In this document: positions 31,552-53,877 of the stretch, piece after piece
How positions within the stretch are numbered: the stretch's first letter is position 1
How the letters are laid out: each line of letters starts with the position of its first letter
Assembly (NCBI GenBank): GCA_021324015.1
Contig: JAJPJX010000060.1
Location: 62,001 to 126,000, forward strand
Length of the DNA: 64,000 nt
DNA from: Solibacteraceae bacterium
GTDB taxonomy: Bacteria; Acidobacteriota; Terriglobia; Bryobacterales; Bryobacteraceae
Reading direction: 5' to 3'
Position numbers and translations under genes: made by a program
The notes under the pieces: generated by a model
Seen by the model: the letters and a program-made list of their open reading frames with translations, nothing else
Database searches by the model: none
Told to the model about the DNA's origin: nothing

Positions 31552-31561
31552 TCACCGGCCT

Positions 31562-32778: not shown

Positions 32779-32811
32779 ATCGGTTTCCTCCTGGCGGCCT
32801 CACGCAATGCC

Positions 32812-33280: not shown

Positions 33281-33297
33281 GCGGTCCTCAACCACGG

Positions 33298-33869: not shown

Positions 33870-34206
33870 GTTTGGCCTCCTCCGCGCCCAGAAAGATCCG
33901 CGACTGCTGCCGCAACTCGTCGATGGTGTACGTTCCGCTGGTCCACAGGACGCCCTGGACAAAACCGATCCACCGATGCAGCTTGTCCTCCGGCCATCGG
34001 TCAACCTCCTGGACGGTGAGCATGCCCGGATCAAGGTCCATCAGCATGTGGTCGATCATCCACAGCAGGTGATCGAACTCCGCGGTCACGCGCGCCCAAC
34101 CGGCCAGGCCGGGCCGGTCCTGGAACCGCCGCGCGACCGCGTTGTACCGGCCTCGCAATTCGGCCTTGTAGTGATGGAGCAACTCCACAACCTGATCGCG
34201 GTTCAC
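33859..34206 (-). CDS. Hypothetical helical protein
   Basis: A 115-residue protein from GTG 34206, which overlaps the preceding stop. It is helical with MDLDPGMLTVQEVDRWPEDK and two Met-rich segments (LLWMIDHMLM). The ribosome site GAGGTGGA precedes it. No family recognised. Consistent spacing within the operon is the main support. Confidence 0.57.
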   Translation of the reverse strand: MNRDQVVELLHHYKAELRGRYNAVARRFQDRPGLAGWARVTAEFDHLLWMIDHMLMDLDPGMLTVQEVDRWPEDKLHRWIGFVQGVLWTSGTYTIDELRQQSRIFLGAEEAKREG

Positions 34207-34481
34207 GATTCCACCTCGTTCTCTCCCTCGACCAGGAACTCCGTGTCCTCGACCGCCTCGGCGATATGGAAGCTCTCCCACGGCTCGTCCTCGACGCCCT
34301 CGGCGGGCTTCGGCAATAGGCCCGCCCGTAACCGAATGAAGGCCTCGGCCAGCCCGTCTGGCGACCAGAGCCAGGAAGCGGGCACCACACACTTGACCCG
34401 CTCCTCACGGGTGGTGCCCTGCTGCTTCGCGTCATACGCCACGGTTATGATCGCGGCGCCCGTAAACTCCTTCATCTCCAT
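34203..34481 (-). CDS. Hypothetical acidic protein
   Basis: A 92-residue acidic protein starting MEMKEFTGAAIITVAYDAKQ. It has one pair of beta strands then a helical, Glu-rich C-terminus ending EGENEVES. No motif. Overlaps its neighbours on both sides by four and ten bases. Confidence 0.57.
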   Translation of the reverse strand: MEMKEFTGAAIITVAYDAKQQGTTREERVKCVVPASWLWSPDGLAEAFIRLRAGLLPKPAEGVEDEPWESFHIAEAVEDTEFLVEGENEVES

Positions 34482-34657
34482 TCGCCTCCGCAGTCAGGAC
34501 ACCGCCAGTGATCTATCCGGTCATGCTCGACCATGCCAATTGCCCGGCTAAAGCGCGTCGCGCCGCCATAGGCGGGGCGATCCTTCTCGGGGATCGCCTC
34601 GCCGTCGAGATCGGCACCGCAATGTGGGCACCGTTCTGGTGTGCGCCGTGGCGTCAC
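34472..34657 (-). CDS. 61-residue zinc-ribbon protein
   Basis: From GTG 34657, overlapping the previous stop as GTGA. The protein has CPHCGADLDG near the start and CPDCGGEWR at the end, a clean C-x2-C...C-x2-C ribbon with an intervening 40-residue basic section. Ribosome site AAGGA. One of a notable series of such small proteins in this operon. Confidence 0.65.
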   Translation of the reverse strand: MTPRRTPERCPHCGADLDGEAIPEKDRPAYGGATRFSRAIGMVEHDRIDHWRCPDCGGEWR

Positions 34658-35067
34658 GCCGCTTCCTTGCCTACCGCGCGCCGCTTGGCCATGTCCTTGT
34701 TGACCCGCCGCATCCTCTCGGCGGCGGCCTTCCGCATCGCGGGGGTCCATTGAACCTTCTTCTTGGCGGGCTTCGGTGCTTCCGTTGCGCCCGGTCTCGG
34801 CCCCTTGCCAGATCGGAACGCCGCCCACCGCTTCTTGAGTGCCGCCGCCTGCGGCGTGGCCCTCTGCTGTGCCTTCTTCCCGTTGGCCGCCCACCGCTTC
34901 CGTTGCGCTTCTGCGATCCGCGCCCGTCCGGCCGCGCTGATGTGCTTCCGCGCTGGCTTGGCATTGGTCAGTCCTAACTGCTCGCGCAACGCCGCCGCAC
35001 GCGTCGCTAATAGGCGGCGCTCGATCTCGCAATCCACCAGTTCGTTGAGTAACTGCTCCTTCGTCAT
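34654..35067 (-). CDS. Basic DNA-binding-like protein with repeated KRW/RMRR motifs
   Basis: A 137-residue, very basic protein starting MTKEQLLNELVDCEIERRLL, with an N-terminal helix pair. The later segments ISAAGRARIAEAQRKRWAAN, AALKKRWAAFRSGKGPR and AMRKAAAERMRRVNKDMAKR look like three variants of a NUMOD3-like DNA-binding motif (A..RKRWA). It probably binds DNA non-specifically. Its start overlaps the methyltransferase stop by four bases. Confidence 0.6.
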   Translation of the reverse strand: MTKEQLLNELVDCEIERRLLATRAAALREQLGLTNAKPARKHISAAGRARIAEAQRKRWAANGKKAQQRATPQAAALKKRWAAFRSGKGPRPGATEAPKPAKKKVQWTPAMRKAAAERMRRVNKDMAKRRAVGKEAA

Positions 35068-35759
35068 TCCATCTCCTTCCGTGTGAGTACAAACATGCGG
35101 TCGTGCAAACCGATCCATTGGGGGATCGCCACGACCTTCTCGATCCGCCAGTCCCGATCCACCGCCTCGTAGAACGCGTCGTCGCCGGTGCAGCCGCCCA
35201 ACTCGCCCACGAAAATCACCGTCCGTCCCGCATAGTTCGCCAAGCACCGCGAAGCCATCGGCAACTTGTACGGCGGCCAGCACAGAAACAGCGTGCGACG
35301 CGGGTGGAACCGCACCATCCCCGCGCCGCCACGCCGCACCGGGAAGTAAGCGCCGCACTCCTTGACCCACCGGTGCCGCTTCTTTTTGGCTGTCCTCTGG
35401 CCCATGCGCGAGTCATACGCTACCACGTCGCCTCCGGCCTCGGTCGCCAGGCGTGCCCAATAGCCCGTGCCCGCGCCGATCTCGACCACCGGAGAATGCT
35501 CGACCAGTGTCTTGATCGCCTTCTCGTCGGGCACCGCCCAAGCCCACCGCTCGCAGGCATAATCGCGGGCGGCGAACTCGGCGATGCTGAAGGCCTTGAC
35601 CACCACCTCATCCTTCACGTCCATCTGGATGCCCCACCGCTTGAGCGTGCCGAGGCTGGCGCGCGCTTGCTCCGGCGTGATCTTCAGCTTGTTGGGCAAC
35701 TCCCGCCAGAGCTTCAACAGGTCGTTCGGAAACGCGCTTGGGCTTGTGCCGTTCTTCAT
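35064..35759 (-). CDS. SAM-dependent methyltransferase-like protein
   Basis: A 231-residue protein. The SAM-binding segment VVEIGAGTGYWARLATEAGG (about residues 91-110) is clear, and FLCWPPYKL further on resembles a DPPY-type catalytic loop with W replacing D. This layout resembles phage methyltransferases of the type next to Dam-like enzymes, but could also act on protein or RNA. The gene overlaps the end of the upstream Xre frame by about 150 bases. Confidence 0.65.
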   Translation of the reverse strand: MKNGTSPSAFPNDLLKLWRELPNKLKITPEQARASLGTLKRWGIQMDVKDEVVVKAFSIAEFAARDYACERWAWAVPDEKAIKTLVEHSPVVEIGAGTGYWARLATEAGGDVVAYDSRMGQRTAKKKRHRWVKECGAYFPVRRGGAGMVRFHPRRTLFLCWPPYKLPMASRCLANYAGRTVIFVGELGGCTGDDAFYEAVDRDWRIEKVVAIPQWIGLHDRMFVLTRKEME

Positions 35760-36099
35760 GCAGCACCCTCACCGCATGCACCGTCTCCCAAGAGTTGATG
35801 GACGCCAGGAACAGTGTCGCCAGATGCGCGGTCTTGCTCTCCGTGTGGATCTTCCGCTCGCCGGGCTTCGGCTTCCTCACGCCACGAGCGATCCGCGCCA
35901 GCGCGAGGCGGTACTCCGAGGCGGGCGAGTGCTCGCCTCGTTCCCACTCCGAGATCATCCTGGGCAACGGGGCCGGGGTTCCGCGCCGGGCATGCCTGCT
36001 GATCTCGCGTGCCAGTTCCTCCTGGCTCCAGTCCTTGTGGCGGCGCAACTCGGCAATGGCGTCGCCAATGATCCGGTGCATCGATGCGATGTGCTTCAC
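35608..36099 (-). CDS. Xre-family helix-turn-helix regulator
   Basis: A 163-residue protein from GTG 36099 (ATG 36081 is an alternative). WSQEELAREISRHARRGTPA and RMISEWERGEHSPASEYRLA carry the Xre/Cro HTH including the conserved SEWERG step. The C-terminal 50 residues overlap the next gene in another frame for 152 bases and have shadow-like composition, so the true protein may be shorter or the overlap may be real. It could be the repressor or a small-gene operon regulator, but its position within an operon argues against a classical CI. Confidence 0.6.
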   Translation of the reverse strand: MKHIASMHRIIGDAIAELRRHKDWSQEELAREISRHARRGTPAPLPRMISEWERGEHSPASEYRLALARIARGVRKPKPGERKIHTESKTAHLATLFLASINSWETVHAVRVLHEERHKPKRVSERPVEALAGVAQQAEDHAGASARQPRHAQAVGHPDGREG

Positions 36100-36142
36100 G
36101 TGTCAAACGAGGACCTCCGTGTTCCGGGCCGCCCACGTCGTT

Positions 36143-36931
36143 CTATGCGCGCGTCCCGACTCCGTTGCTGTGGTTCGTGCCGTTCAACTCGGCTTTGCGC
36201 CAGATCGTCTGACGCCTCCCGAAGTGCTCTTGCTCCTTGATCAACTCGCCTCGTTCATGGAGCGTCATCATGGCTTGCGCTATCGAGGCGCGCACGCGGA
36301 CGCGTTCGTTGGAGTCGATCTGCCGCCCATTGGCCATGAGGGACAGAACGTCGTTGACCGTGAATGGGTCGTCGAACGTCTGCGTGGCCGCCAGGACGAG
36401 TTGCCGGGTGACCTGGACCCGCTCCGTTATGGCGTCTGGCGGCGCGGGCGCGACCGGCCTCGCTGGGGCCGGCGGCTCAACGGCTGGCAGCACGCCACGG
36501 AGGGCATCCTCTGTCGCCGGGTCGTCGGTGAATGGCAGCAGCGCCTTGAGCATGTGGACCTTGCGCTCGTGCGCCTGCGCCTCGGCGAGGAGCTTCTCCT
36601 GGATCGCTTCCTCGCTGGCGATGGCGGCCTCGATACGTTCCTTTAGGGACTCCACCTTCGGCGGCGGCGGTGCTGGCTGCGGCGCGGTCGGAGGCGTGGG
36701 ACGTTGTTGTTGCATCTTCCGTTCTCCTTCTTGGTTGGGGGTCTGATGGACGACGCCGAGGGCGTGGCGCAGGCTGGACAGATTGTTGCGCATGGACCTG
36801 TGGTCGCTGGGCGTCTTGGGGCTGGTGAACTTCTGTCCGTTGGGCAGGCGGTAAACGCGGTGCTTGTCGTCGCGTAACAGCACGGCACCGTGCTCGTCCA
36901 GGAGCCGATCAATCTCGGTTGCCGCGTTCAT
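36143..36931 (-). CDS. HicA-like domain fused to coiled coil and winged helix
   Basis: A 262-residue protein. Residues 5-60 (LLDEHGAVLLRDDKHRVYRL, LSSLRHALG) resemble the HicA toxin dsRNA-binding fold including the conserved H24. After a Pro-rich linker, residues 95-262 match the layout of the protein at 52099-52590: coiled coil, the DDPATEDAL landmark (EDPATQEL in the other), then FTVNDVL and a winged helix ending RRQTIWRK. This looks like an N-terminal toxin-like domain added to a duplicated gene. Starts overlapping its upstream zinc gene (ATGA). Confidence 0.6.
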   Translation of the reverse strand: MNAATEIDRLLDEHGAVLLRDDKHRVYRLPNGQKFTSPKTPSDHRSMRNNLSSLRHALGVVHQTPNQEGERKMQQQRPTPPTAPQPAPPPPKVESLKERIEAAIASEEAIQEKLLAEAQAHERKVHMLKALLPFTDDPATEDALRGVLPAVEPPAPARPVAPAPPDAITERVQVTRQLVLAATQTFDDPFTVNDVLSLMANGRQIDSNERVRVRASIAQAMMTLHERGELIKEQEHFGRRQTIWRKAELNGTNHSNGVGTRA

Positions 36932-37086
36932 ACGCACTCCACGCAGATGGAATCCTCGAGCGAATTGCAGCACGGCCCGTACATCCGGCCGCACTTCTCG
37001 CACCCGCATCGCTCATCGGCGTCGCAGGCCTGGCCGCAAATCTCGCAGGTCACGAACTCTGGTTTCTGCTGCTTCGGTCGCGCCAT
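36928..37086 (-). CDS. 52-residue cysteine-rich protein
   Basis: From ATG 37086: MARPKQQKPEFVTCEICGQA, followed by CDADERCGCEKCGR and CCNSL..SICVEC. Around a dozen cysteines in 52 residues form at least two metal sites. Its stop overlaps the next start and it abuts the previous gene (36928 TGA in ATGA), which supports coding despite the short length. Confidence 0.65.
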   Translation of the reverse strand: MARPKQQKPEFVTCEICGQACDADERCGCEKCGRMYGPCCNSLEDSICVECV

Positions 37087-37398
37087 TTAGTTGTCCGTGG
37101 TGAGCGGTAGCTCAACCGCGTATCCCTTCAGGACGGTGAGCTTCTGGCCATGCAGGTCGCGCCAACCGTCCGGATTGTGGACCGCAAAAAAGGCTACATC
37201 GCGGTCATCGTGTTTATGCCCGATCAGGAGTATGAGGTCCACGCGCTGCTCGCGCATTACATCGAGCGCCTCCTTGGAGCACGATCCTGGCCCAAGGTCG
37301 GGCATCTCGTCGGGTGTCGATGCGTCGAGCACCTCGCCAAGCACTCGGCCTGGCGGTCCATCGACCATCACCACGTCTCCCTTCTCGAATAGCTTCAT
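37087..37398 (-). CDS. Hypothetical small protein, SH3-like start
   Basis: A 103-residue protein from ATG 37398 with the ribosome site GAGGGA. It begins MKLFEKGDVVMVDGPPGRVL, an SH3/KOW-like beta hairpin, and continues with an alpha/beta section. No motif. It abuts the cysteine-rich gene downstream. Confidence 0.55.
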   Translation of the reverse strand: MKLFEKGDVVMVDGPPGRVLGEVLDASTPDEMPDLGPGSCSKEALDVMREQRVDLILLIGHKHDDRDVAFFAVHNPDGWRDLHGQKLTVLKGYAVELPLTTDN

Positions 37399-37601
37399 AG
37401 ATCCCTCTGGCTGGCGCGCAGGATGTTGCTCTTGCCGCCCGGTTGGATGAGGAAGTAATTGCTGGCCGCCGCTTGGCGCGGGTGGCGGCGAACCAACCAC
37501 GCCAGTTTCCGGTATCGGAGTGGCGCGCTCGCGCGCACGCGGAGTGGCCGACCCAGGACCAGGATCGGCGCGTTGTTTGGTTGCTCGTCGATGTTCTTCA
37601 T
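37395..37601 (-). CDS. Hypothetical basic small protein
   Basis: A 68-residue protein from ATG 37601, starting MKNIDEQPNNAPILVLGRPL and becoming basic (LRYRKLAWLVRRHPRQ). It overlaps the neighbouring starts and stops by four bases. No motif. Confidence 0.52.
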   Translation of the reverse strand: MKNIDEQPNNAPILVLGRPLRVRASAPLRYRKLAWLVRRHPRQAAASNYFLIQPGGKSNILRASQRDL

Positions 37602-37909
37602 TGGTGGTCGATCCAATATTCGAACGCCGCCCGCGCCGCTTGGCGCAACGTCATGCCGGGCGGGTCGTGCTCCGTCCCGCCATAGCATGAGCACCGCCGT
37701 TGCTGGTGCGCCAGCGACCCGACGACCATCCGCATGTGGCACTCGAAGTGGTATGGCTTCTCGGACTCGCCGTCTGTGTCGATGTGCGGGATAATCACGC
37801 CACGGTTGCCCGTCTCGATTGGCTCCAGACAGAAGCCGCAGGCCGCGCCGACCGGCGTGGGCGCCGACTGCTCCTCGGGTTCGACAATGGTGACGCCGAA
37901 CCACTTCAT
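37598..37909 (-). CDS. Zinc-binding hypothetical protein
   Basis: A 103-residue protein starting MKWFGVTIVEPEEQSAP. CGFCLEPIETGNRG near residue 24 and CSCYGG near residue 73, with a HIDTDG and FECHM between them, indicate a metal-binding (treble-clef-like) centre. It overlaps both neighbours by four bases. No known family identified. Confidence 0.6.
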   Translation of the reverse strand: MKWFGVTIVEPEEQSAPTPVGAACGFCLEPIETGNRGVIIPHIDTDGESEKPYHFECHMRMVVGSLAHQQRRCSCYGGTEHDPPGMTLRQAARAAFEYWIDHQ

Positions 37910-38421
37910 CGGTCTGGCTCCGGCTCCGGCTGGTGCTCAACGGCATCGCACCACGCGCCCCATATGTTCGGGAAGTCGCGCCGGATATGTTCGAGCATGC
38001 GTGTCATTCGGGCGGTTGCGTTCGATAACTCTGCGCATGAGCCAAGCAACTCTCCAAAGACCGAATTGACGGCTATATCCGGGTCCTTAGCGGCGGCAAC
38101 CAGCAGCCCATCGTTGATCTCCGCGAGGCGCACGTAAAGCGTGTGGAAGTGATTCACTGGAGCCTGCTTCATGTTGACGGGAGGCAGCCATGCGAGTTTG
38201 ATGTCCTCTCCGATTCGCGCCAGGCGCGCAACCGCAGACGCGCAGGCCCAATGGCAGAGGGCACCCTCAACGGTGTGGATACGTCCGTCCTCTGGCGGGT
38301 GCTCCTTAGGCAAAAGCGTCGTTTCGTCGCCAGGTTCAAATTTGTGCTGGCAGATGCCGCACGGCATGCCAAGCGCCGGATGATCTGCTCGTAATGGAGG
38401 GAACTTGCGGAGGTCAGTCAT
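37906..38421 (-). CDS. Hypothetical protein with CGIC/CHWAC motif
   Basis: A 171-residue protein from ATG 38421. CGICQHKFEPGD and CHWACASAV form a ring/treble-clef-like cluster in the N-terminal third, and the remainder is helical (FHTLYVRLAEINDGLLVAAA). The start overlaps the upstream gene by eight bases. Function unknown. Confidence 0.58.
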   Translation of the reverse strand: MTDLRKFPPLRADHPALGMPCGICQHKFEPGDETTLLPKEHPPEDGRIHTVEGALCHWACASAVARLARIGEDIKLAWLPPVNMKQAPVNHFHTLYVRLAEINDGLLVAAAKDPDIAVNSVFGELLGSCAELSNATARMTRMLEHIRRDFPNIWGAWCDAVEHQPEPEPDR

Positions 38422-39478: not shown

Positions 39479-40099
39479 CTAGTGCGCAGGGATCGGGCGT
39501 GCAACTCGTCGGCGGTCGAAGAACTCATGGCGCCCCGCCGCCTGGCTGTAATCCGGATTCTTGATCTTTATCCAGGTCGGCGCCTTCGGGTCATACACGC
39601 CGTCCCGCTGTTTGGCCACGATTCCTTCGAGGTCTTGGCGGCAGATCTCGCGGAACAGGTCCACGCCGCGTCCGTCGATGTGATCGACGTACAACAACCG
39701 GGACGGTTGGCGCGGCACCAAGCGCCGCAGGATGGCCTTCCTCTTTACCAACGGCAGGCAACGCAGGTCGCGGCCATCCAACCAGAGGCAATCGAAGGCG
39801 TAGAAGTACGGGTCTGCGCGGCGGTGCAGGAGCGGGTAGAACTGCGCGCGGCCGGAGCCGTCCAGTGCCACAATCTCGCCATCCAGGATGGCCTCGTGCT
39901 GGCCAACGGCGGCGGCGAGCGACGTGGCCAAGCCGGGGAAGCTCTTGAAAATGTTGCCGTTGCGCGAAACAAGGCGGCCGCCGCCAGCCTCGATGTAGGC
40001 GACGGCGCGGAAGCCGTCCCACTTCAGTTCGAACAGCCAGTCGGGATGGTCGAAGGGTTCGGACAGACAGACCAAGCGGAGCGGGGTAATGCGTTGCAG
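39479..40099 (-). CDS. ATP-dependent DNA ligase, catalytic domain, 5' end damaged
   Basis: About 206 residues with the ligase nucleotidyltransferase motifs: I KWDGFRA with the adenylated lysine, III LDGEIV, IIIa FYAFDCLW, IV EGIVAKQ and V WIKIKNPDYS. It resembles LigD-type ligase domains without the OB domain. In-frame homology (LQRITPLRL) continues upstream of TTG 40075 to a stop at 40112-40114, with no ATG, so the natural start is missing or CTG is used. The break point lies inside a repeat also found next to the integrase stop. Confidence 0.75.
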   Translation of the reverse strand: MQRITPLRLVCLSEPFDHPDWLFELKWDGFRAVAYIEAGGGRLVSRNGNIFKSFPGLATSLAAAVGQHEAILDGEIVALDGSGRAQFYPLLHRRADPYFYAFDCLWLDGRDLRCLPLVKRKAILRRLVPRQPSRLLYVDHIDGRGVDLFREICRQDLEGIVAKQRDGVYDPKAPTWIKIKNPDYSQAAGRHEFFDRRRVARPIPAH

Positions 40100-40112
40100 G
40101 TAACGCGCCTCT

Positions 40113-40126
40113 TATTGCTATTTTAC
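40113..40126. repeat. Near-identical repeat, outer copy (possible attachment half-site)
   Basis: TATTGCTATTTTAC here and TACTGCTATTTTAC at 44552-44565 differ at one base. The copies flank a 4.4-kb cargo segment. This copy lies exactly where the ligase gene loses its 5' end; the other overlaps the stop codon of the integrase. An 11-base exact match alone could be chance in 64 kb, so the placement is what makes it notable. Confidence 0.4.
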
Positions 40127-40380
40127 CTGCGCGCTTGGACGCGGCACTCTGGGGGACACGGGCGAACACAGGCGATGCGCATTGCGGCGCTTTCTGTGGC
40201 ATCGAAAACCCCAGTGCAAATCGACGACAATCCGCTCGCAATCTCTTGATTCCAGGTCGCTACACGCTCTGAATGCCATCGATACGGACCAGACTTATGC
40301 AGCAACGACTGTTTTTTGACATCATCAGCCCCTTGAAAAATCAAGAGCTTACGTGCTAACCATGGTAGCGAACCATCATC

Positions 40381-41697
40381 ATGGCAAGGTCGAACACAGC
40401 CCGCCAACTCAGCCTCTACCCGGAGGTTGTGGAGCCGGCCGTAGCAGTGAAGGCCGACACTACTTCAACCTTCACTGACAACGTTTCACTTCCGATTCAC
40501 CGCTGGTTTCGCTATTCCGCAGGCTTCTCAGCCGTGTGGGCGCACGCGCTCATTGAGCGTGAGAAGGCGAATGGTCGCAGGACCGTCCTCGACCCGTTCT
40601 CTGGATCGGGCACCACAGTCCTTGAGGCCGAACAATGCGGAATGGAGGCCATTGGAGTTGAGGCCCACCCGTTCGTGGCCCGCGTCGGACGGGTAAAGCT
40701 TCTGTGGAGGTCCGACGTTGAGGCGTTCAAGAGATTTGGTCATCGAATCCTCGACCATGCAATGCACCGAAAGCCTGAAGCGAGGGCAACGCCACCGCCA
40801 CCGCTCCTGGCCAAGTGTTTTCCGGCTGATGTTCTGGCCAAGCTCTATTCGCTCCGGACAGCATGGCAGGAGCAGAATGACGAATCTTCTGCCTCCGAGC
40901 TGTCTTGGCTTGCATTGATGTCGATTCTCCGTGAGTGTTCGCCGGTAGGCACGGCACAGTGGCAATACGTTCTGCCAAACAAATCGAAGGCGAAGGTGGT
41001 CGATCCCTACGAGGCATTTGGCAGCAAGGTGCTCATATTCGCTGGCGACATGCAAGCCCGGCAGTGGATGTCCCACGGCCCGCAGGCCCGCCTCATTCAG
41101 GAGGATGCTAGATTCTGCACTTCAGTACCGGATGGATGGGCCGACTTGGTTGTCACGTCACCGCCGTACGCCAACAATTATGACTACGCCGACGCCACGC
41201 GCTTGGAGATGACATTCCTTGGCGACATCAACGGTTGGGGTGACTTGCAGACATCTGTTCGCGATCATCTGGTTCGTTCCTGCACCCAACATGTGGGTCC
41301 CATCAGCCGGCAGACCGATGAGATCTTGCTGGACCCACTGCTGGAACCGATACGCGCGGAAATCAAAGACGTTTGCGCCAAACTTGCCGTGGAGCGGGAA
41401 TCCCACGGCGGCAAGAAGCAATACCATACGATGGTTGCCTGTTACTTTAGCGACTTGGCAAAAGTTTGGGTTGCGTTGCGCCGGGCTACGGCTGCGAACT
41501 GCCTAGTTTGTTTCGTCATAGGTGATTCCGCACCGTATGGGATTTATGTTCCTGTTGACCGGTGGCTCGGGGATTTGGCCGTGGCCGCGGGCTTCAGGTC
41601 ATACAATTTCGAGAAGACCAGAGACAGGAACATCAAGTGGAAGAACCGGAAGCATCGCGTGCCGTTGCACGAAGGAAGGTTGTGGGTCGAAGGATAA
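40381..41697 (+). CDS. DNA methyltransferase of the cargo cassette
   Basis: A 438-residue protein. The SAM-binding DPFSGSGTT (71-79) precedes the catalytic TSPPY (259-263), so the order is opposite to the phage ParB-fused enzymes and it is a different class. TSPPY suggests cytosine-N4 or adenine-N6 methylation. The N-terminus includes SLPIHRWFRYSAGFSA, seen in methyltransferases of restriction systems. It is followed 4 bases later by a nuclease-like gene and then by an EVE gene overlapping that, so it forms a plus-strand operon read against the phage operons. Confidence 0.82.
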   Translation: MARSNTARQLSLYPEVVEPAVAVKADTTSTFTDNVSLPIHRWFRYSAGFSAVWAHALIEREKANGRRTVLDPFSGSGTTVLEAEQCGMEAIGVEAHPFVARVGRVKLLWRSDVEAFKRFGHRILDHAMHRKPEARATPPPPLLAKCFPADVLAKLYSLRTAWQEQNDESSASELSWLALMSILRECSPVGTAQWQYVLPNKSKAKVVDPYEAFGSKVLIFAGDMQARQWMSHGPQARLIQEDARFCTSVPDGWADLVVTSPPYANNYDYADATRLEMTFLGDINGWGDLQTSVRDHLVRSCTQHVGPISRQTDEILLDPLLEPIRAEIKDVCAKLAVERESHGGKKQYHTMVACYFSDLAKVWVALRRATAANCLVCFVIGDSAPYGIYVPVDRWLGDLAVAAGFRSYNFEKTRDRNIKWKNRKHRVPLHEGRLWVEG

Positions 41698-41701
41698 CTT
41701 A

Positions 41702-42604
41702 ATGGCAGAATCTCCTGCACACCAATTCGGCCAGATGATTGGCGACGTTCTCGAAGCCGCGATTGAACCCATTTTGCAGAGCTTCGCAACCAAGTATGGC
41801 TTGTACTTGGACAAGAAGGGGCTGCGCCCAGCCCGACCTGGGAATAAGGTCAGTTGGACCGACGGGAAGGAGAACAAGCACGACCTGGATTTTGTTTTGG
41901 AGCGCGGCGGTACTGCGGCCAAGAAAGGAATCCCCGTAGCGTTCATCGAGACAGCCTGGAGACGCTACACCAAGCATTCCCGCAACAAGGCTCAGGAAAT
42001 CCAGGGCGCAATCATACCTCTCATCGAGAAGCACAAGAACCATTGTCCATTCATCGGCGTGGTGCTGGCAGGAGTTTTTACTGACGGCGCCCTGTCGCAA
42101 TTGCGCTCTCTCGGCTTCACCGTTGCATACTTCCCCTATACAACCATCATAAAAGCATTCTCGGTAGTTGGAATCGACGCAAGCTCTGACGAGCAGACGC
42201 CAGACGATGAGTTCGCCGAGAAGATGAGAAGATGGAACGCCCTCAAGCCAGCGGACAAAGCGAAGCTCTACAAAACGCTGATCGATCTCAACGAGGGCGA
42301 GATGAAGTTGTTTTTCGGCAACCTCGTTAAGATGGTAAATCGGCAGATCAAGAGCGTCAGGATTCTTCCTCTCCACGGCGCGCCGGTAGAATGGGCGAAC
42401 ATCGAAGATGCGATCAAGTTCATTGCCGACTATAGGGAGGAGTCCACAGACAAAGCTCTGCTTCGCTATGAAGTACAAATCGTGTACGTGAACGGCGACC
42501 GGATCTCCGGCGAATTTGGCGCCAAGCAGGACGCCATCGACTTCCTGAAGACTTACCAGACGGCCTGCAAGACAGATTCGGAGGCCGTCGGAGGAAAGTC
42601 GTGA
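41702..42604 (+). CDS. Putative restriction endonuclease, PD-(D/E)xK-like
   Basis: A 300-residue protein. The segment NKHDLDFVLERG with D61/D63 followed by GIPVAFIETAWRRYTKHSRN (E83) is arranged like the D...E-x-K core of restriction enzymes, with T/A replacing the usual lysine and K91 or K96 nearby as possible replacement. The start lies 4 bases after the methyltransferase stop and the stop overlaps the EVE gene, the layout of a restriction-modification operon. The catalytic assignment is by pattern and genomic neighbourhood, not a confident family match. Confidence 0.62.
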   Translation: MAESPAHQFGQMIGDVLEAAIEPILQSFATKYGLYLDKKGLRPARPGNKVSWTDGKENKHDLDFVLERGGTAAKKGIPVAFIETAWRRYTKHSRNKAQEIQGAIIPLIEKHKNHCPFIGVVLAGVFTDGALSQLRSLGFTVAYFPYTTIIKAFSVVGIDASSDEQTPDDEFAEKMRRWNALKPADKAKLYKTLIDLNEGEMKLFFGNLVKMVNRQIKSVRILPLHGAPVEWANIEDAIKFIADYREESTDKALLRYEVQIVYVNGDRISGEFGAKQDAIDFLKTYQTACKTDSEAVGGKS

Positions 42605-43014
42605 GTTCTGCCGTCAGTACTACCAACTGGTTCTTTGTGGCGCACCATGTTCTCCATCTGACCGAGGTCGAGGAAGGACGAGAAACATGGTGGTGCGTTG
42701 ACCGCAACACCGCTCCCGGCGATCGGGCCTTCATATACAGGCCGTTGAAGGGTGTCTGTTGGTATTTTGAAATTCTGGAACACATCAAGCCGGATGCGTT
42801 TTGTTCGTCGTTCGGGATGGGAACCGCCCGAGTTAAGATACTCAGGGTGTTTGACCCGCCAATCAGTGCCAAACAGATGAAGTCTTCATCAGTTGTCAAA
42901 GACGAGGGTTTCGTACGACGCAATTTTCAAGGAAAGGCATTCGTCGTTCATTCCAAGGAGACACCGAAGGCGATGTTGAGTCTGGCGCGGAAGAACGAGC
43001 GCGCCGCAAAATGA
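42601..43014 (+). CDS. EVE-domain (PUA/YTH-like) modified-base reader
   Basis: A 137-residue protein from GTG 42601, sharing its TGA overlap with the nuclease gene. TTNWFFVAHHVL, WWCVDRNTAPGDRAFIYRPL and GVCWYFEILE follow the strand and loop order of EVE domains, including the PGD turn. EVE domains bind modified cytosine or adenine in restriction and defence systems and are frequent companions of McrB-type proteins. Here it would read the mark made by the methyltransferase or by an invading phage. The exact base is unknown. Confidence 0.72.
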   Translation: MSSAVSTTNWFFVAHHVLHLTEVEEGRETWWCVDRNTAPGDRAFIYRPLKGVCWYFEILEHIKPDAFCSSFGMGTARVKILRVFDPPISAKQMKSSSVVKDEGFVRRNFQGKAFVVHSKETPKAMLSLARKNERAAK

Positions 43015-43021
43015 GGAGCCT

Positions 43022-43603
43022 CTACAGGGTGACCCTTCGTCGTGCCAGAGTGCGGTAGAGACGAACCATCTGCCTCAAGTCCTCTATCAATTCGAGTTCC
43101 GCAGGGAGTGAGACATCATAGGTCTTTCCGAATGCGTGCCCGGCCTCATAGTACGTCGCCGGAGCGCCAGGATAACTAACATCCAGCGTTATCGGACCGT
43201 CGCTGAAGGCGGTTCTGAATTGCGGCACCTTTGATCGAATCAATTCCGCATTCGGTCTCAGCATCTCGGGCGATTCACCTGCGATGCCCTGATTGAGAGA
43301 GAGAACGAGGCGCTTCATGGACCCCGCAAAAAGATACGCAACGTAATAGCCGCGCTGCGGGCTGCTCGCAACGGTGGGGTCCATGATGGCTATCCACGGC
43401 GTATCTGCCCATCGTCCCTGTCCCGACGAACCCTTGACCCTTAGTCCTAATGCGTCCTGCCCCAACACATCGATTATGAGGGCTGGGATCTCATTGCGGA
43501 TCGTGTTCGCCACTGGATGGCCCTTGATGCTCGTCCGTTTGGCCGATTCGTACGACACTAGCACTCGCCGGAATGCCGTTCTCAGGCCGGTCGAAGCGTC
43601 CAT
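43022..43603 (-). CDS. Free-standing McrB N-terminal-like (DUF3578) protein
   Basis: A 193-residue protein. ATG 43603 was chosen for the GGAGG six bases upstream. VKGSSGQGRWADTPWIAIMD and GYYVAYLFAGSMKRLVLSLN match the core of the McrB-type N-terminal domain that opens type IV restriction enzymes. Here no AAA+ GTPase follows, so the domain is alone. It converges tail-to-tail with the EVE gene (8 bases apart), so it is part of the cargo region but not the same transcript. DNA-modification reading or regulation are the likely roles. Confidence 0.75.
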   Translation of the reverse strand: MDASTGLRTAFRRVLVSYESAKRTSIKGHPVANTIRNEIPALIIDVLGQDALGLRVKGSSGQGRWADTPWIAIMDPTVASSPQRGYYVAYLFAGSMKRLVLSLNQGIAGESPEMLRPNAELIRSKVPQFRTAFSDGPITLDVSYPGAPATYYEAGHAFGKTYDVSLPAELELIEDLRQMVRLYRTLARRRVTL

Positions 43604-43688
43604 TTTCGCCTCCGTCGTCAATCCAGCTGCCAAGCAGAAAACTGCTCATACAGCGGAATCCGGAAGGTATCACATTGCGGACTGGCGT

Positions 43689-44063
43689 TCACCGCCTGTC
43701 AGCAGCCGTCTTCGCCTGGTGCTCCTCCGTCGTCAGCCACTGCATGTTGGCCGGCTGGTCCGCGCCGCCTTTGCTCAACGGCACGCGGTGGTCGATTTGG
43801 TAGCCGGGACACACGCCCGTAGTCCTGCCGGTCGCCGGGCACGGATTCGCTTGCCGGAATTCACGTATCGCGGCGGCACTCCGGGCGATGCGACCGTTCG
43901 CGGCTCGCTGGCACTCGGCGCACCGCGTCGAGCGGGGTCTCTCGGAACGCCTAGTGGGGCGTTCGGTGCGGCGTTCGGAACGCGGGCTGGACCGCCCGGT
44001 GCGCGCCCAGGAGATGCTGACGATTGCAGCAGCGAGTGAGAGGATTGCCAGGAGGCGACGCAT
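43689..44063 (-). CDS. Secreted HNH endonuclease
   Basis: A 124-residue protein with a hydrophobic signal-like N-terminus (MRRLLAILSLAAAIVSISWA) and an HNH core: CAECQ and CPATGRTTGVCPGYQIDH, then NMQWLTTEEHQAK. Cysteine pairs and the H-x(n)-N-x(n)-H residues are all in place. Nucleases with this layout, probably periplasmic, are common in proteobacterial phages and could degrade incoming DNA. Preceded by no clear ribosome site. Located between the McrB-N gene and the 44.1-kb gene. Confidence 0.72.
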   Translation of the reverse strand: MRRLLAILSLAAAIVSISWARTGRSSPRSERRTERPTRRSERPRSTRCAECQRAANGRIARSAAAIREFRQANPCPATGRTTGVCPGYQIDHRVPLSKGGADQPANMQWLTTEEHQAKTAADRR

Positions 44064-44143
44064 ACAACGAAGATCGGCTGGATGCGATCATTTCTTTACA
44101 AGGCACGATTGACATTTTTCCGAATTTGCCCGATTGTATTCGC

Positions 44144-44395
44144 ATGACTGATGCTGAGCGCCGGGATCGCGAGCAGCGATTCAGGCGAAGTTTCGAGCAA
44201 GAGTTTCCGGACTTCGCGCGTAAGTGCGCGTTGGACGTCGAGATGGTCATTCTCCACCAGGACGCATTCGCGGTCGATTACCAGGAAGACGAGTTCGCGA
44301 AGCTCGGCAAGGCCATCAAGTACGCCGGGCTCATGGGGAAGGTAGTGAACGTCATCGGCCGGAACGCGGAGACACTGCGGCCCATGCCAGCCTAA
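44144..44395 (+). CDS. Hypothetical small protein
   Basis: An 83-residue protein from ATG 44144: MTDAERRDREQRFRRSFEQE, helical and charged, then hydrophobic LGKAIKYAGLMGKVVNVIGR. Extension to 44024 would run back over the HNH start and is less likely. TTGACA lies about 30 bases upstream, but a good -10 at normal spacing was not found. No family recognised. Confidence 0.5.
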   Translation: MTDAERRDREQRFRRSFEQEFPDFARKCALDVEMVILHQDAFAVDYQEDEFAKLGKAIKYAGLMGKVVNVIGRNAETLRPMPA

Positions 44396-44540
44396 GGGAC
44401 CGGGCCAACCTGTCAATCAGTTCCCAGAAGATCAGTTTGCGCGGGTGTGCGTCGTTGTGTCCCTGCGCATTGAGATATGCGAGGAGAGCCTCCTGGTTCT
44501 CCTCGCTGTGGTCTTCGAACTCGATCATCGCCATCGTCAT
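44352..44540 (-). CDS. Possible small protein downstream of integrase
   Basis: A 62-residue frame from ATG 44540, MTMAMIEFEDHSEENQEALL, with an acidic helical N-terminus and basic C-terminus. It follows the integrase stop by 21 bases but overlaps the converging 44144-44395 gene by 44 bases. Composition is compatible with coding, but nothing further supports it. Confidence 0.35.
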   Translation of the reverse strand: MTMAMIEFEDHSEENQEALLAYLNAQGHNDAHPRKLIFWELIDRLARSLRLAWAAVSPRSGR

Positions 44541-44551
44541 GCTCGACGCCG

Positions 44552-44565
44552 TACTGCTATTTTAC
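44552..44565. repeat. Near-identical repeat, inner copy overlapping the integrase stop
   Basis: TACTGCTATTTTAC differs by one base from the copy at 40113-40126. The integrase stop TAA (44562-44564) lies within it. Attachment sites next to the 3' end of the integrase gene are typical of temperate phages. Confidence 0.4.
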
Positions 44566-45962
44566 GCCGCCGTCTCCTTGGCCTTGATCTCAACCACGTT
44601 GTTGTGGCGGTCCTTGCGCGCGGCGCGGGCGATCTTGGCGCGCTCGCGCTGGCGGCGCAGCAGGTCCGTTGCGGGCTGTGCGGCGGGCAGATCCGTCTTG
44701 GCCGCCGCCTTGTACCGCATGTCCTGGATGCGTCGCGTGAGGGTGCTGTGGCGCCTGATGGCGATCTGCGTATAGTCGAGCGTCGTGTCCACCTTCGAGT
44801 GGCCCGCGATCTTGCTGGCCTCGATTGCGGTGCCGCCCACTTCCTGCCGCCACGAGATGTTGGCGCGGCGCAGGGAGTGCATCCCAAAGCCAGGGAAGTC
44901 AAGGCCCGGATCATCCGGGTCATCGGCGTTCTGCTTGAGCGATGCCGCCGCCTCTTTGAGCGCCTTGCGCACGCCAGAGTCCCATCGGGGCTGCGTGAGG
45001 TCAATGTCCTGCGGGAAGACCCAATCGTTAGGCCCGCGCCGCTTCAGGCTGGCGATCCACGTCTTGTACCGCTCCGTCAACGCGCCCAGCGCAAGGTCGC
45101 GCCTGCTCTTGGCCGTCTTGGGTTCGTCGATGTCGCCGTGGAAGTTCCGCTGCTCGATGTGGATGATGCCCTTATCGAGATCCACGTGCTTGATCATCAG
45201 GCCGGTCGCCTCCGAGATCCGCGTGCCGGTGTCGAGGCAGGTTTCACAGATCAGGCGGTTGGGGTCTTCGATGAGCGCGAGCACCTGCGCCGTCTGCTCC
45301 GGGTCGAGGATGCGCTTCTCGCGGACCTCCCACTTCTTAGGCAACCGCACCCGGTGTATCGGGTTGGCGAACGTCTCGGGCAGGAAGTCCCACTGGATCG
45401 CCTTGGTGATGATCCCGCTCATGGCGTTGCGGAGGCCGCACATGCCGTGCCAGGAGGTGGAGTTGTTCTGGAGCCAGTCCAGCACGTCCTTGGATCGAAT
45501 ATCCTTGATCGCGACGCCGCCCCACTTGGGGAGCAACTTCGCCAAGCAATCGCGGTACTTGATGCGCGTCGGCAGAGCCAGGAGCGGTTTGCCCGCCGCG
45601 CTGCCCTCGACATACTCCTTGCGCCACACCTCGGCCAACGCGCCGAACGTGGCGTCGCCCGGCTCCGTCTTCTTGGGCGCGCGCACCGGCGTCGCGGGCA
45701 CCGGCGCGTCGTCGTCGTCGTCCGTGCTGCCAGCCGCAGGGTCGCCGCCCTCCTGAAGCTGCGCGAAGAAGGCGTCGCGCTTCTCGCGCGCCTCCTTGAT
45801 CCCCATCGGGTGATCCTTGTCCCGGCTCGGGCCAATGACATAGCTGCGCCGGATGCGCTCCACTTCGCTGCCTTCAACCACGTCCTCGTAGTATCGGAAG
45901 AACCACTGGTACACTCCGCGAATCTTGCGTTCGTGGACCTCTGGATGTTGTGCTTTGATCAT
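44562..45962 (-). CDS. int: Tyrosine site-specific recombinase (integrase)
   Basis: A 466-residue protein. ATG 45962 has AGGAG at the right distance; a TTG six codons earlier is less likely. The full catalytic set is visible: R248 in LDTGTRISE, K285 in KTAKSRRD, H362 and R365 in MHSLRRANIS, H388 in AGHSKVDTT and Y397 in DYTQI. An acidic insert of five Asp residues separates the arm-binding from the core-binding region. The enzyme should integrate and excise the phage; the neighbouring repeat at its stop is the best att candidate. Confidence 0.92.
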   Translation of the reverse strand: MIKAQHPEVHERKIRGVYQWFFRYYEDVVEGSEVERIRRSYVIGPSRDKDHPMGIKEAREKRDAFFAQLQEGGDPAAGSTDDDDDAPVPATPVRAPKKTEPGDATFGALAEVWRKEYVEGSAAGKPLLALPTRIKYRDCLAKLLPKWGGVAIKDIRSKDVLDWLQNNSTSWHGMCGLRNAMSGIITKAIQWDFLPETFANPIHRVRLPKKWEVREKRILDPEQTAQVLALIEDPNRLICETCLDTGTRISEATGLMIKHVDLDKGIIHIEQRNFHGDIDEPKTAKSRRDLALGALTERYKTWIASLKRRGPNDWVFPQDIDLTQPRWDSGVRKALKEAAASLKQNADDPDDPGLDFPGFGMHSLRRANISWRQEVGGTAIEASKIAGHSKVDTTLDYTQIAIRRHSTLTRRIQDMRYKAAAKTDLPAAQPATDLLRRQRERAKIARAARKDRHNNVVEIKAKETAA

Positions 45963-46042
45963 CGTTTCTCCTGTGCCCAACCAACAGCACCTCGACCCTT
46001 ACCTTCCTGGGGTCCATAGCGCAAGGCGTCTAACGACGCCGA

Positions 46043-47740
46043 TTACAGCGAGATGCCCAACGACTCCCGCTGGCAGATGTACAGGCGTTCATACGCCCTG
46101 GTGATGCCCACATAGAACTGGCGGATCACCGGGTCGCGATCCGCCCCGCCGTGGCTGTACTGCGCGTCGCCCGCCTGCGAGAGATCGGGGAACAGGAACA
46201 CCACGTCGGCCTGGCCCCCCTTGACCGAGTGGATCGTGCCGACAATCACCTGGGGCTTGTCGATCAGGGCGCGCGGCCCCCGCCTGGCGGCAACCTCGAT
46301 GGGGAACTTGGCGCGCTCGGCCATGTCCGTGGTGAGGCGCGTGCGCCACCAGTCGAGCAGGACGCGGTAATCGCCGTCGAGCGCCGTCATGAGGGAGTCG
46401 AGGGCCGGCGGTTCGAATATCTCCACGAGGCGATCCATTCCGGCCGCCTGCGCCGCATCCGCCGCCTTGAGCTTCGTCTTGGCTCCGTGACGCAGGATGC
46501 CCTTGGATTGGAGCGCCTCGGCCCACTGCGCCAGATCGCCGTTCGTCCACGGGCGGTCGTCGCTAAACGCCGGGTGCGCAACGAGCAACGAGAGCACTCG
46601 GCCGGCGCTCGACACCCGCTTGCCGACGCGGATCGGGTTCCAGAAGCCGTTCGAGCGACGGTATGGATTATGGAACGGGATGCCCTCCTTGCGGAGGATC
46701 GCGATAAGCGGCCGGAGGTGGTAGGAGCAGGCCGCCAGGAACATCACCTCCTTGCCGTCCGCGAGGTGCTTCTCTGCCTCGCGCAGAATCCGGCACTCGA
46801 TGTGCTTATAGGTGTCAGCCTTCCCGGTGAACTTGCACGTGTCGCCGTCCGCATCGCGCGGCAGGTACTCCTTGGCCTGGCGCCTCGTGACCATGTGGAT
46901 CAGGTCCTCGGCCATGCGATGCACGGCGCGCGGCACACGGTAGGACTGTTTGAGCACGATCTTGTGGTCGTCGGGGATGTCCGGATCGAGGAACGCCTCG
47001 GGCGTCGCGCCGGTGAACGAATAGATGGTCTGGTCGTCGTCGCCCGCCACGATGAAATAGCTGGCGTGCTCACCCCACTTTCGGACCAGCGACAACTGCA
47101 TGCGGTTGAGGTCCTGGGCTTCGTCGGCGAAGATCACGGCGGGATTGTTCGGAGCGATCGCCACGTCCCGCAGGCACTTCTCGATGAGGTCCGTGAAGTC
47201 GAGCACGCCATTGTCCTGCTTGTACTGCGCCCACATCTGCTCGAACGCCACGAGCGTCGGCGGCCACGCACGCCTGGGCATCATCATCCCCCGGTAGCGG
47301 CTCAACTGCTCCAGGAGTGCGTCGCCGCCCTTGGCGGCATCGTCCTCGTCGGCGGCCTCCTCGCCGTCCAGCCGTCCCTGGCGCTTCTGCTGCGTGATGG
47401 CCAGGGACGGGTGGTCCTTGTTCCAGTCCTCGACGTTCGCCTCCGCGATCTCCGGGCCGCCCAGCGCATGCCAGCAGTGGGAGTGGAGCGTGCCGACGCG
47501 ATCCGACGCGATGGGCAGATCGCGCCCGGCCAATTCCGCGGCGGCGGCGCGCGAGAAGGACGTGACCAGCACACCCTCCGGGCCGTACCGCTCGACGGCC
47601 CGGTGGATCTGCCGGGTGAGGTTGGTCGTCTTGCCCGTGCCAGGCGGCCCGAAGATCCTGTACTCGGACGTGACCTCGTGGTCCCGCCGGCCGATTTCCT
47701 CGAGCGTGCCCGTGGCGCGCGTCTCACTGGACGGTGACAT
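46043..47740 (-). CDS. UvrD/Rep-type superfamily 1 helicase
   Basis: A 565-residue protein with all SF1 motifs: I GPPGTGKTT (31-39), II DEAQD (206-210), III GDDDQTIYSFTGA, IV QSYRVPRAVHR, V GTIHSVKGGQADVV and VI YVGITRAYERLYI. Somewhat shorter than UvrD, so accessory 1B/2B subdomains are reduced. Likely unwinds DNA in replication or recombination next to the primase, whose stop overlaps its start by 17 bases. Confidence 0.9.
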   Translation of the reverse strand: MSPSSETRATGTLEEIGRRDHEVTSEYRIFGPPGTGKTTNLTRQIHRAVERYGPEGVLVTSFSRAAAAELAGRDLPIASDRVGTLHSHCWHALGGPEIAEANVEDWNKDHPSLAITQQKRQGRLDGEEAADEDDAAKGGDALLEQLSRYRGMMMPRRAWPPTLVAFEQMWAQYKQDNGVLDFTDLIEKCLRDVAIAPNNPAVIFADEAQDLNRMQLSLVRKWGEHASYFIVAGDDDQTIYSFTGATPEAFLDPDIPDDHKIVLKQSYRVPRAVHRMAEDLIHMVTRRQAKEYLPRDADGDTCKFTGKADTYKHIECRILREAEKHLADGKEVMFLAACSYHLRPLIAILRKEGIPFHNPYRRSNGFWNPIRVGKRVSSAGRVLSLLVAHPAFSDDRPWTNGDLAQWAEALQSKGILRHGAKTKLKAADAAQAAGMDRLVEIFEPPALDSLMTALDGDYRVLLDWWRTRLTTDMAERAKFPIEVAARRGPRALIDKPQVIVGTIHSVKGGQADVVFLFPDLSQAGDAQYSHGGADRDPVIRQFYVGITRAYERLYICQRESLGISL

Positions 47741-49598
47741 GGCGGTCTCCTTCGTGCTGCGGGTAATCGGCGGGGTCGAAGCGGTTTTCGAGCACCTCCC
47801 CCTTGTGGTCCTCGGGGCCGGGCAACGCCCACCGCGACTGGTCTTTGAACTTGGAGCCGCGCACGCGGAGGCTCTTGGCGCCCATCGCGGAGAGGGCAGC
47901 CGCGATCTTATTGATGGAGAGGTTCTGGAACGTCGTCTTGTTGATGTATCCCTGGAGTTCCGCCGCGATGATGGTGATCCTGCCGTTGATGACCATGGGC
48001 TTGCGCTGGTCCTGGAGCTTCAACTCCTCCTCGACGGAGCGGATGAAGTTCGTCTCGGTCAGGTAACTCTGGAGGTACTGGCGCATAGCGCCCAGCCAAT
48101 GCATCTCGTCCGATCCCTCCTCGACGATGCAGGCGTCGAGCATCATCTGCGCGACCGTTTTCCAGACGGGGGCCTTGATGCGATCCATGACCCGCCGCAC
48201 CTGCGCGCCGATCACGGCCAGCACGAACGTCTGGTCCATCAGCTTGCCGTAGGAGGGGATCTCCATCTTCGTGCCGTTCTCCAACTCGATGCGGTACTGC
48301 GGGTCCTTGCCCCGGATCTCGACCATGCGGAGAATCCGGTTCGGCGGGTTGAGCTTCAGATAAACAGAAATCTCCGAGCAGAGCGCGACGCGCTGGCGCG
48401 CTTCTGCCTGCGGATCAGGCGGCGGGGGCGGCGTGGCGGCGTCGGGCGGCGGGCTGGTACTCTCGGTCGCCTTGCCGTTGACCAGCGCAACGGGGGCCGC
48501 CTGTGCCGCCGCCAGGCCGGTCGTGGGCGGCGTCTCTGCCGCGCCCTGCGCGCCGGTAACGGCAGGGATCGCCACGCGGTATTCCGACCGCTCCTGTGCC
48601 AGCGCGATGGTGCGCTGGTAGTACGTGATGCCCTTGCGGTGCTTCTGGACGTACATGGAGCGGTGGTGGATGATCAGGTCCACGATCTGCTGCTCCGACA
48701 GCCCCGCGTCCACGCCGAAGTCGGCCAGCGCGAGGTCGTAAGCGGACTGCGAGTCGTCCTTCAGATCGTGCCTGCGGCGCTCCCAGGTGTTCCGGAACCT
48801 GGCAGCCGTCTTCGGGTCCGTCTGCTTCGGGTCCATCCACGCATCAAGCAGTTCTTGAGGGATGCGCGCGGCGGGATTGATGGCGAGCGGTTTGTCGGCG
48901 AACTTCTCCTTCCACTCGCGCGCCGCCTTCTCCTGCGCCTCCGGATCGGGGATGGTCGCGTCCTCCAGCAACTCCTCGAAGTCGCCCAGGTTGTAATAGG
49001 CACCGCCATGGCTGTGGACCACCACGTCCTTCGGATTGGCCGGGTCCTTCAGGTTCTTGGTGCCGGGGATGCGCAGGATGCGGGCGAGATCGGAGAGGCG
49101 CTCGTACACCCACCCCTTGGCCGCTGCGTTCAACCGGAGCATGGTGTGCCAGCGACCGAGGAGCCGCATCACCCGCTGGCGGTCCTCCTCGGAGTCGAAC
49201 ATATACGGCTCCTTGAACAACCACCAGGCGTGAATGCCGTTGCCGGTCGCCAGCATGATCGTCGGCGGGAACCCCGCAGGGAGGATCGACAACGCCTCCG
49301 GAATAGTGCCAGGCAGAGGCTTGTCGTGCGCCGCCGACCGGAGATCCAGGTCGGTGCCGATACCCGCCAGGCCGGTAATCTCCTCGGAGACGCACCGCCG
49401 ATTCGGGCCGTACTGCTCCTTGGAGCATCCGACGCCGATGTACACGTCCTTCTTCTGGCCGTGCGCCGTGGCCATCTCTGCGGCCTTCTCCACGTCCAGG
49501 AACCAATGCGAGCGCTTCTCGGGCCACGTCCACAGCAGGACGTACTGGTCCTCAGGCTTGGCACCCCACAACAGGTCCAGGAACTCCTTGGGCGTCAT
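47724..49598 (-). CDS. RepB/AEP-type primase with C-terminal extension
   Basis: A 624-residue protein from ATG 49598 (MTPKEFLDLLWGAKPEDQYV); longer frames are shadows of the HD gene. ITGLAGIGTDLDLRSAAHDK holds an acidic D-x-D, and ATGNGIHAWWLFKEP and LARILRIPGTKNLKDP match the G-x-G-x-H and R-x-P-G-T-x-N steps of plasmid/phage archaeo-eukaryotic primases. A Pro-rich linker near residue 395 leads to a C-terminal half resembling DUF-type helicase-loader or DNA-binding regions. Makes primers for phage replication; follows the HD gene. Confidence 0.78.
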   Translation of the reverse strand: MTPKEFLDLLWGAKPEDQYVLLWTWPEKRSHWFLDVEKAAEMATAHGQKKDVYIGVGCSKEQYGPNRRCVSEEITGLAGIGTDLDLRSAAHDKPLPGTIPEALSILPAGFPPTIMLATGNGIHAWWLFKEPYMFDSEEDRQRVMRLLGRWHTMLRLNAAAKGWVYERLSDLARILRIPGTKNLKDPANPKDVVVHSHGGAYYNLGDFEELLEDATIPDPEAQEKAAREWKEKFADKPLAINPAARIPQELLDAWMDPKQTDPKTAARFRNTWERRRHDLKDDSQSAYDLALADFGVDAGLSEQQIVDLIIHHRSMYVQKHRKGITYYQRTIALAQERSEYRVAIPAVTGAQGAAETPPTTGLAAAQAAPVALVNGKATESTSPPPDAATPPPPPDPQAEARQRVALCSEISVYLKLNPPNRILRMVEIRGKDPQYRIELENGTKMEIPSYGKLMDQTFVLAVIGAQVRRVMDRIKAPVWKTVAQMMLDACIVEEGSDEMHWLGAMRQYLQSYLTETNFIRSVEEELKLQDQRKPMVINGRITIIAAELQGYINKTTFQNLSINKIAAALSAMGAKSLRVRGSKFKDQSRWALPGPEDHKGEVLENRFDPADYPQHEGDRHVTVQ

Positions 49599-50128
49599 GC
49601 GGTCAACTCCGTGAAGCGATCCAGGAACCGCGTCTCGGCCACTTTGGGGAGCCACGGCTCGACGGTGAGGGTGGGCAGAGGCGCCACGCCGCACTCGTTG
49701 ATGATCCACTCCCTGTCGTCCATCGAAGTCACATCGCGGAACTCGGTCGCCAGCATCGCGCGGTCGGCGACGATGACGGAGCGCGGCATCTCCGGCCGCA
49801 GGTTGTACCGGTCGCAGATCGTGACCATCAGCCGGCCCTCGGCGATGCGGTACTGAACCATCTCCAGGAGGCCCTTGAACGGGCGGGGCAGGTCGCCGGT
49901 GTACGCCTCGCTGGCGTCGTGCAGGAGACCCCACAGGGCGTCCTCCTTGGGCACCAACTGGCTCACGAGGATAGAGTGCTGCGCCACGGAATAGAACTTC
50001 GTCGTGTGCCCCAGGAACCGGCAGAGATGCGAGAGAGAGCGGGCAATGTCGAAGATGCTGATCTCGCTGGTCTTGGGGTCCAGGAGATCGACGTGCCGCC
50101 CGGTATAAGTCCGAAAATAGTTCGCCAT
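49595..50128 (-). CDS. HD-domain phosphohydrolase, YfbR-like
   Basis: A 177-residue protein from ATG 50128 (MANYFRTYTGRHVDLLDPKT). YSVAQHSILVSQLV and LLHDASEAYTGDLPRPFK give the H...HD metal site (H51, H70 and D71) with the characteristic EAYTGD segment. Related proteins hydrolyse deoxynucleoside monophosphates and would adjust nucleotide pools. Overlaps the primase start by four bases. Confidence 0.82.
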   Translation of the reverse strand: MANYFRTYTGRHVDLLDPKTSEISIFDIARSLSHLCRFLGHTTKFYSVAQHSILVSQLVPKEDALWGLLHDASEAYTGDLPRPFKGLLEMVQYRIAEGRLMVTICDRYNLRPEMPRSVIVADRAMLATEFRDVTSMDDREWIINECGVAPLPTLTVEPWLPKVAETRFLDRFTELTA

Positions 50129-50133
50129 GCGAT

Positions 50134-50418
50134 TCACCACAGTCCTTTTTGCTGCTTCGAAGCGCGCGGACGCGGGTCCGCGACGGGTGCTGCTTTCGAT
50201 TCCTCGGGCGGCGGCGGGTCGTCGGTGTACACCGGCCTGGTAGCCAGCCACTTGTCCCACGCGACGAAGCGCTCGCCGTTCCAGACGCAGAGCGTCGCGT
50301 CGTCCATGGGCGCGTCGGCGGGGATCTGCGACAACAGATCCGCCTCGCGCGCCTGGCGGTCCTCGATGGCCTGCTCCTGCTCGCGGTACTGACGCAAAGC
50401 CTCGCGACCGTAAATCAT
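50134..50418 (-). CDS. Hypothetical small early protein
   Basis: A 94-residue protein from ATG 50418. The N-terminal half is helical and charged (YREQEQAIEDRQAREADLLS), followed by FVAWDKWLATRPVYTDD and a Pro/basic C-terminus. No motif. It overlaps the nuclease-like gene upstream by four bases. Confidence 0.55.
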   Translation of the reverse strand: MIYGREALRQYREQEQAIEDRQAREADLLSQIPADAPMDDATLCVWNGERFVAWDKWLATRPVYTDDPPPPEESKAAPVADPRPRASKQQKGLW

Positions 50419-51035: not shown

Positions 51036-51080
51036 GCCGCCCCCCGATCACGCAATCGACGCGACAGATGGAGCCGTACG

Positions 51081-52096: not shown

Positions 52097-52098
52097 GG

Positions 52099-52590: not shown

Positions 52591-52605
52591 GGGGCACCTC
52601 CGGAG

Positions 52606-53876: not shown

Positions 53877-53877
53877 G

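Follow-up and report, generated by a model that had tools for sequence, protein, structure and literature searches.

A predicted Type II restriction-modification pair with unusual EVE and MrcB_N neighbors next to a prophage-like integrase

RESULTS AND DISCUSSION

Organization of the locus

The window (the 64,000-nt stretch of DNA analyzed here, which forms the right-hand end of a contig of 126,375 bases) carries a block of four genes that, judged by homology and predicted structure, very probably contains an orthodox Type II restriction-modification (RM) system of the R.PamI/NcoI-like restriction endonuclease (REase) family; an EVE protein would be a probable accessory, an MrcB_N protein a passenger or remnant, and the block itself foreign. 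By analogy with close homologs in this family, the methyltransferase (MTase) would methylate one short palindromic site in the host, probably at N4-cytosine, and the PD-(D/E)XK REase would cut unmethylated copies of the same site, with destruction of incoming phage or plasmid DNA as the expected outcome. The RM core is ordinary, one more member of a widespread REase family in which PamI is the one specificity-characterized relative found here; it is the EVE/MrcB_N neighborhood that is unusual, and it is unreplicated. Both neighbors are small proteins of types that read modified bases in DNA; these readers matter only if they are shown to act with the RM pair.

A sequence-only reading of this DNA had described four open reading frames (ORFs) joined by a 4-base gap, a GTGA overlap, and an 8-base convergence, all of which we find as claimed. 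The genes for the MTase (40381 to 41697), the nuclease (41702 to 42604), and the EVE-like protein (42601 to 43014) lie on the plus strand, and that for the MrcB_N protein (43022 to 43633) lies on the minus strand. The nuclease begins with an ATG at 41702, 4 bases after the MTase; the GTG start of the EVE-like gene overlaps the nuclease stop codon; and the MrcB_N gene converges on the operon, ending 8 bases from the EVE stop. Two features are additional to that reading: the stated limits of the block, 40113 and 44565, coincide with an 11-bp direct repeat, TGCTATTTTAC, and a short HNH ORF (43689 to 44063, minus strand) lies 55 bases upstream of the MrcB_N gene on the same strand.

All four genes have a GC content of 0.52 to 0.57, with third-position GC of 0.60 to 0.69, for which most phage genes have 0.83 to 0.90. 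Taken with the overlap of the EVE and REase genes, the common low GC suggests that the four may have arrived together, while the conserved system is the pair alone. A single import of four genes would fit this composition, and to that extent it counts against the orthodox RM reading.

The methyltransferase

The 438-residue MTase matches the PADLOC MTase_II model PDLC03306 along almost its entire length (6.8e-147), with a further match to Pfam N6_N4_Mtase at 6.4e-11. It had been described as a TSPPY methyltransferase, and both motif I (DPFSGSGTT) and motif IV (TSPPY) are present, in the order I then IV (alpha-like). TSPPY favors m4C; the protein is predicted to be an N4-cytosine methylase, probably, with N6-adenine methylation less likely.

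The restriction endonuclease

The 300-residue product of the second gene gave its top match to PADLOC REase_II model PDLC03525 (1.2e-74), which carries no enzyme name, and a further match to PDLC03541 (3.9e-32). The latter model corresponds to R.PamI; the pAMI7 protein matches it over 308 of 308 positions (3e-222). Identity is 29% to R.PamI and 40% to REases on plasmids of Erwinia aphidicola, which are adjoined by the same kind of MTase. An AlphaFold model built from a 43-sequence alignment has a mean pLDDT of 91, and VIA-align placed BstEII (Z 10.4, 136 residues, 2.8 Å) and BsoBI (Z 9.4, 145 residues, 3.1 Å) at the top, followed by BsaWI, SgrAI, PspGI, AgeI, and NgoMIV interspersed with other PD-(D/E)XK nucleases. 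Fold and homology to R.PamI together bear out the earlier assignment of a PD-(D/E)xK-like nuclease. The enzyme is a separate protein with a nuclease fold and no motor domain. Run against PDB sequences, the REase profile gave a chance match only.

Residues D63, E83, and K96 are invariant among 77 aligned sequences, and the region that contains them is conserved in R.PamI. The residue two positions past E83 is an alanine, so the catalytic lysine probably comes from elsewhere, and K96 is a candidate for it.

Plasmid pAMI7 of Paracoccus aminophilus carries a Type II RM module of NcoI specificity (PMC3925955). The MTase gene lies directly upstream of the REase gene there as it does here; however, M.PamI is a C5-cytosine MTase, whereas the enzyme here is an amino-MTase with TSPPY, and PamI lacks an EVE or MrcB_N neighbor. 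Because the two MTases differ in this way, NcoI specificity is not simply transferable. The recognition site may be CCATGG-like. The window contains 9 CCATGG sites versus 17 expected, one of them just before the MTase start. We considered this site as a methylation-controlled switch in the MTase leader and rejected the idea, since it is not conserved in the relatives, where CCATGG shows no enrichment upstream of the MTase. It had been suggested that the MrcB_N protein might substitute for a specificity part; given that the REase family recognizes its own site, as the PamI module does, such a role is unnecessary.

Conservation of the MTase-REase pair

Among 84,980 species genomes scanned, 100 relatives turned up, and 80 of these were retained (L006 to L085); their hosts include Acidobacteria, Planctomycetes, Verrucomicrobia, Bacteroidetes, Cyanobacteria, Proteobacteria, one archaeon, and others. 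In 79 of them the REase gene is immediately preceded by the same MTase gene, typically 1 to 4 bases away; the remaining one (L067) sits at a contig edge, its sequence starting with the REase. Genes, order, and spacing are those of the pair described here, as they are on the E. aphidicola plasmids, with REase identities of about 40 to 65%. By its distribution among these genomes the MTase-REase pair is a mobile two-gene system, and the near-universal upstream MTase identifies the RM core as known and ordinary. The combination of modification and cutting that the sequence-only reading had proposed is thus upheld, as a Type II RM pair.

In four relatives (L068, L072, L075, and L076) the MTase and REase are fused into one ORF of ~725 aa; these are found in Nostoc, Fischerella, and Cyanocohniella.

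Searches with single sequences and with profiles found an EVE gene beside the REase in none of the 80 neighborhoods and an MrcB_N gene likewise in none; 68 of the 80 include 1.5 kb or more of sequence on the downstream side of the REase. Annotated phages held no relatives of the REase or the EVE protein, and viral contigs held none of the REase, EVE, or MrcB_N proteins, the single-protein patterns used for the latter detecting close relatives only. The absence of both neighbors from the 80 neighborhoods leaves a conserved four-gene system unsupported, and we rejected the four-gene cassette as a conserved unit. The earlier idea of one unfamiliar system with two readers finds no support in this comparison, nor did the joint occurrence of the same four genes, which had been proposed as a check, turn up in any of these relatives. 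It is accordingly very improbable that the EVE and MrcB_N proteins are obligate reader subunits that direct or license cutting by the MTase-REase pair: contiguity, the GTGA overlap, the common low GC, and the fact that the EVE relatives found are nuclease fusions (see below) would all suit such a four-part composite, but co-occurrence is 0 of 80, the RM pair is complete alone, the MrcB_N gene is on the opposite strand, and the arrangement is a single instance.

The EVE protein

The third gene encodes a protein of 137 residues that we identify from Pfam and its relatives as a divergent, stand-alone EVE (PUA-like) domain protein. The Pfam EVE model is matched over almost its whole length at 0.0077, with a score of 16.7 bits that falls below the 23-bit cutoff; the earlier label of EVE protein draws its support from homology to EVE-containing proteins. 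An archaeal EVE-HNH protein (L094), in which both domains are themselves subthreshold in Pfam, was matched at 1e-7 by tblastn; a second archaeal relative (L095) is an EVE domain (Pfam EVE, 8.7e-8) fused to a NucS-like nuclease. These were the only relatives found; plasmids, 247 genomes of the same phylum, and 249 from the phylum of Paraburkholderia yielded none but the protein itself. A profile built from the three sequences detects a bona fide EVE protein of the host at 3.3e-7, and there are weak EVE matches to PDB entries 2gbs and 1zce. A single-sequence AlphaFold prediction reached a pLDDT of only 50 and was set aside as evidence.

In L094 (703 to 2019, minus strand), the archaeal EVE-HNH gene adjoins a gene that by eye resembles those for DUF262-type proteins, a possible defense pair.

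The kinship with L094 links the protein to EVE-HNH modification-dependent endonucleases of the VcaM4I type, but here the EVE domain stands alone and follows a Type II REase. The overlap of its start with the REase stop, together with the common low GC, indicates that it is probably coexpressed with the REase; the operon would have acquired the gene at its 3′ end, cotranslation is probable, and the product is most likely an accessory that binds modified DNA. A stronger version, in which MTase, REase, and EVE form a three-gene operon, the EVE protein binding MTase-methylated DNA and tuning expression, protection, or restriction while MrcB_N is unrelated, seems to us possible but unlikely. The translational overlap is what such an operon would show, and EVE proteins adjoin Type I RM systems elsewhere (PMC7641849); nevertheless, the arrangement was seen once, with an EVE gene beside no other member of the REase family. 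A term search of the text of that main EVE survey (PMC7641849) found no EVE gene beside a Type II RM pair.

The MrcB_N protein and the HNH ORF

The convergent gene encodes a stand-alone MrcB_N (DUF3578/ADAM) domain protein of 203 residues; its start codon is uncertain, either a TTG at 43633 or an internal ATG. As the DUF3578/McrB-N label already implied, the domain is certain (Pfam MrcB_N, 2e-39); it spans residues 24 to 197 and is without a GTPase. A profile made with ten MrcB_N relatives matches the N-domain of Escherichia coli McrB (PDB 3ssc) at 7e-6. In contrast to McrBC Type IV systems, no GTPase or McrC gene adjoins it, and the only McrC match in the host genome belongs to an McrBC-like pair on another contig (C66) that has no MrcB_N match. 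Other MrcB_N domains on plasmids occur with a McrB GTPase and McrC, with HNH, with NOV_C, or alone beside a NOV_C gene, a variety which indicates that a GTPase-free MrcB_N is not unique. Convergent and with no GTPase or McrC nearby, the gene is most plausibly an independent passenger: it would be transcribed on its own, as a passenger or as the remnant of a modification reader, and would be no required subunit.

The HNH ORF encodes 124 residues with a hydrophobic N terminus and matches PHROG 589 HNH at 5.8e-8 and Pfam HNH at 0.0012, which is subthreshold; it probably lies outside the RM system. We weighed whether it and the MrcB_N gene represent one modification-dependent (Type IV-like) enzyme, now split or decayed and independent of the RM pair, as two plasmid MrcB_N relatives fused to HNH domains and the 55-base spacing on one strand might suggest. 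This is improbable: the HNH ORF has a signal-like N terminus, an affinity to phage HNH proteins, and a GC content of 0.69, unlike MrcB_N and its other neighbors, and the gene order is opposite to that of the fusions.

One further role would give both readers a function. McrBC-type enzymes are lethal to cells that gain certain m4C or m5C methylases, and E. coli McrBC kills cells that acquire the m4C methylase M.PvuII (PMC2614495); more generally, RM systems conflict with resident methyl-directed enzymes (PMC8989522). The EVE protein, the GTPase-less McrB N-domain, or both might coat the MTase's own marks and so shield the newly marked genome from resident McrBC-type enzymes, and the host does carry the McrB-McrC-like pair on C66. 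We regard this as a long shot, because the association was seen once. If true, the shield could give the RM block access to hosts that possess Type IV restriction; a reader protecting the marks of its own RM system would also be a novel means of resolving the conflict of such systems with Type IV enzymes.

Prophage-like surroundings

The window includes phage structural genes for a terminase, portal, head protease, major head, and tail. Two to three related prophage-like units lie in tandem on the contig, about 67 to 92% identical in their matching pieces, with intervals between them that have no phage counterparts: window positions 44473 to 58020 match 39670 to 56042 of the contig (C2), and 29824 to 37910 match 24407 to 30203. 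The segment from 37.9 to 44.47 kb, which includes the RM block, has no counterpart; the equivalent stretch farther to the left encodes a sigma factor and an M23 peptidase. Next to the block, a tyrosine integrase of the right-hand unit (44562 to 45980, minus strand) matches Pfam Phage_integrase at 3.8e-15 and PHROG 1 integrase at 2e-46; it is context and not part of the RM system.

The RM block is bracketed by exact copies of TGCTATTTTAC at 40116 to 40126 and at 44555 to 44565, the latter overlapping the integrase stop codon; there are exactly two copies in the 126,375-base contig, versus 0.0013 expected. The related sequence TTGCTATCCTAC is found where a second integrase gene ends (3′ end, contig position 39752). 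These repeats look like attachment cores of tandem prophages, which would make the RM block an att-flanked module. Were they att cores, 40126 would be the end of the left unit (~62.4 kb in length) and the right unit would begin near 44555, with the RM block in the gap; strong similarity persists for ~80 bases to the left of the integrase-end cores, which makes the exact border uncertain. Thus the earlier description of cargo beside an integrase is true of position, but the block sits between two prophage-like units, not clearly inside one, and is not clearly phage cargo. We favor a foreign, low-GC acquisition that would have inserted between two related prophage-like units, with an integrase adjoining. 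A 19-bp perfect repeat to the left of the two integrases (44473) was tried as the att core and rejected, as it has no copy at a right end.

Two other features of the window were noted. Near the terminase, two ParB-like/DNA-methyltransferase fusion proteins (PHROG 498) are encoded side by side at 24781 to 26139 and 26735 to 28666. Directly left of the RM block, at 39479 to 40075, is an ORF of 198 residues with an ATP-dependent DNA ligase domain, short for a full ligase.
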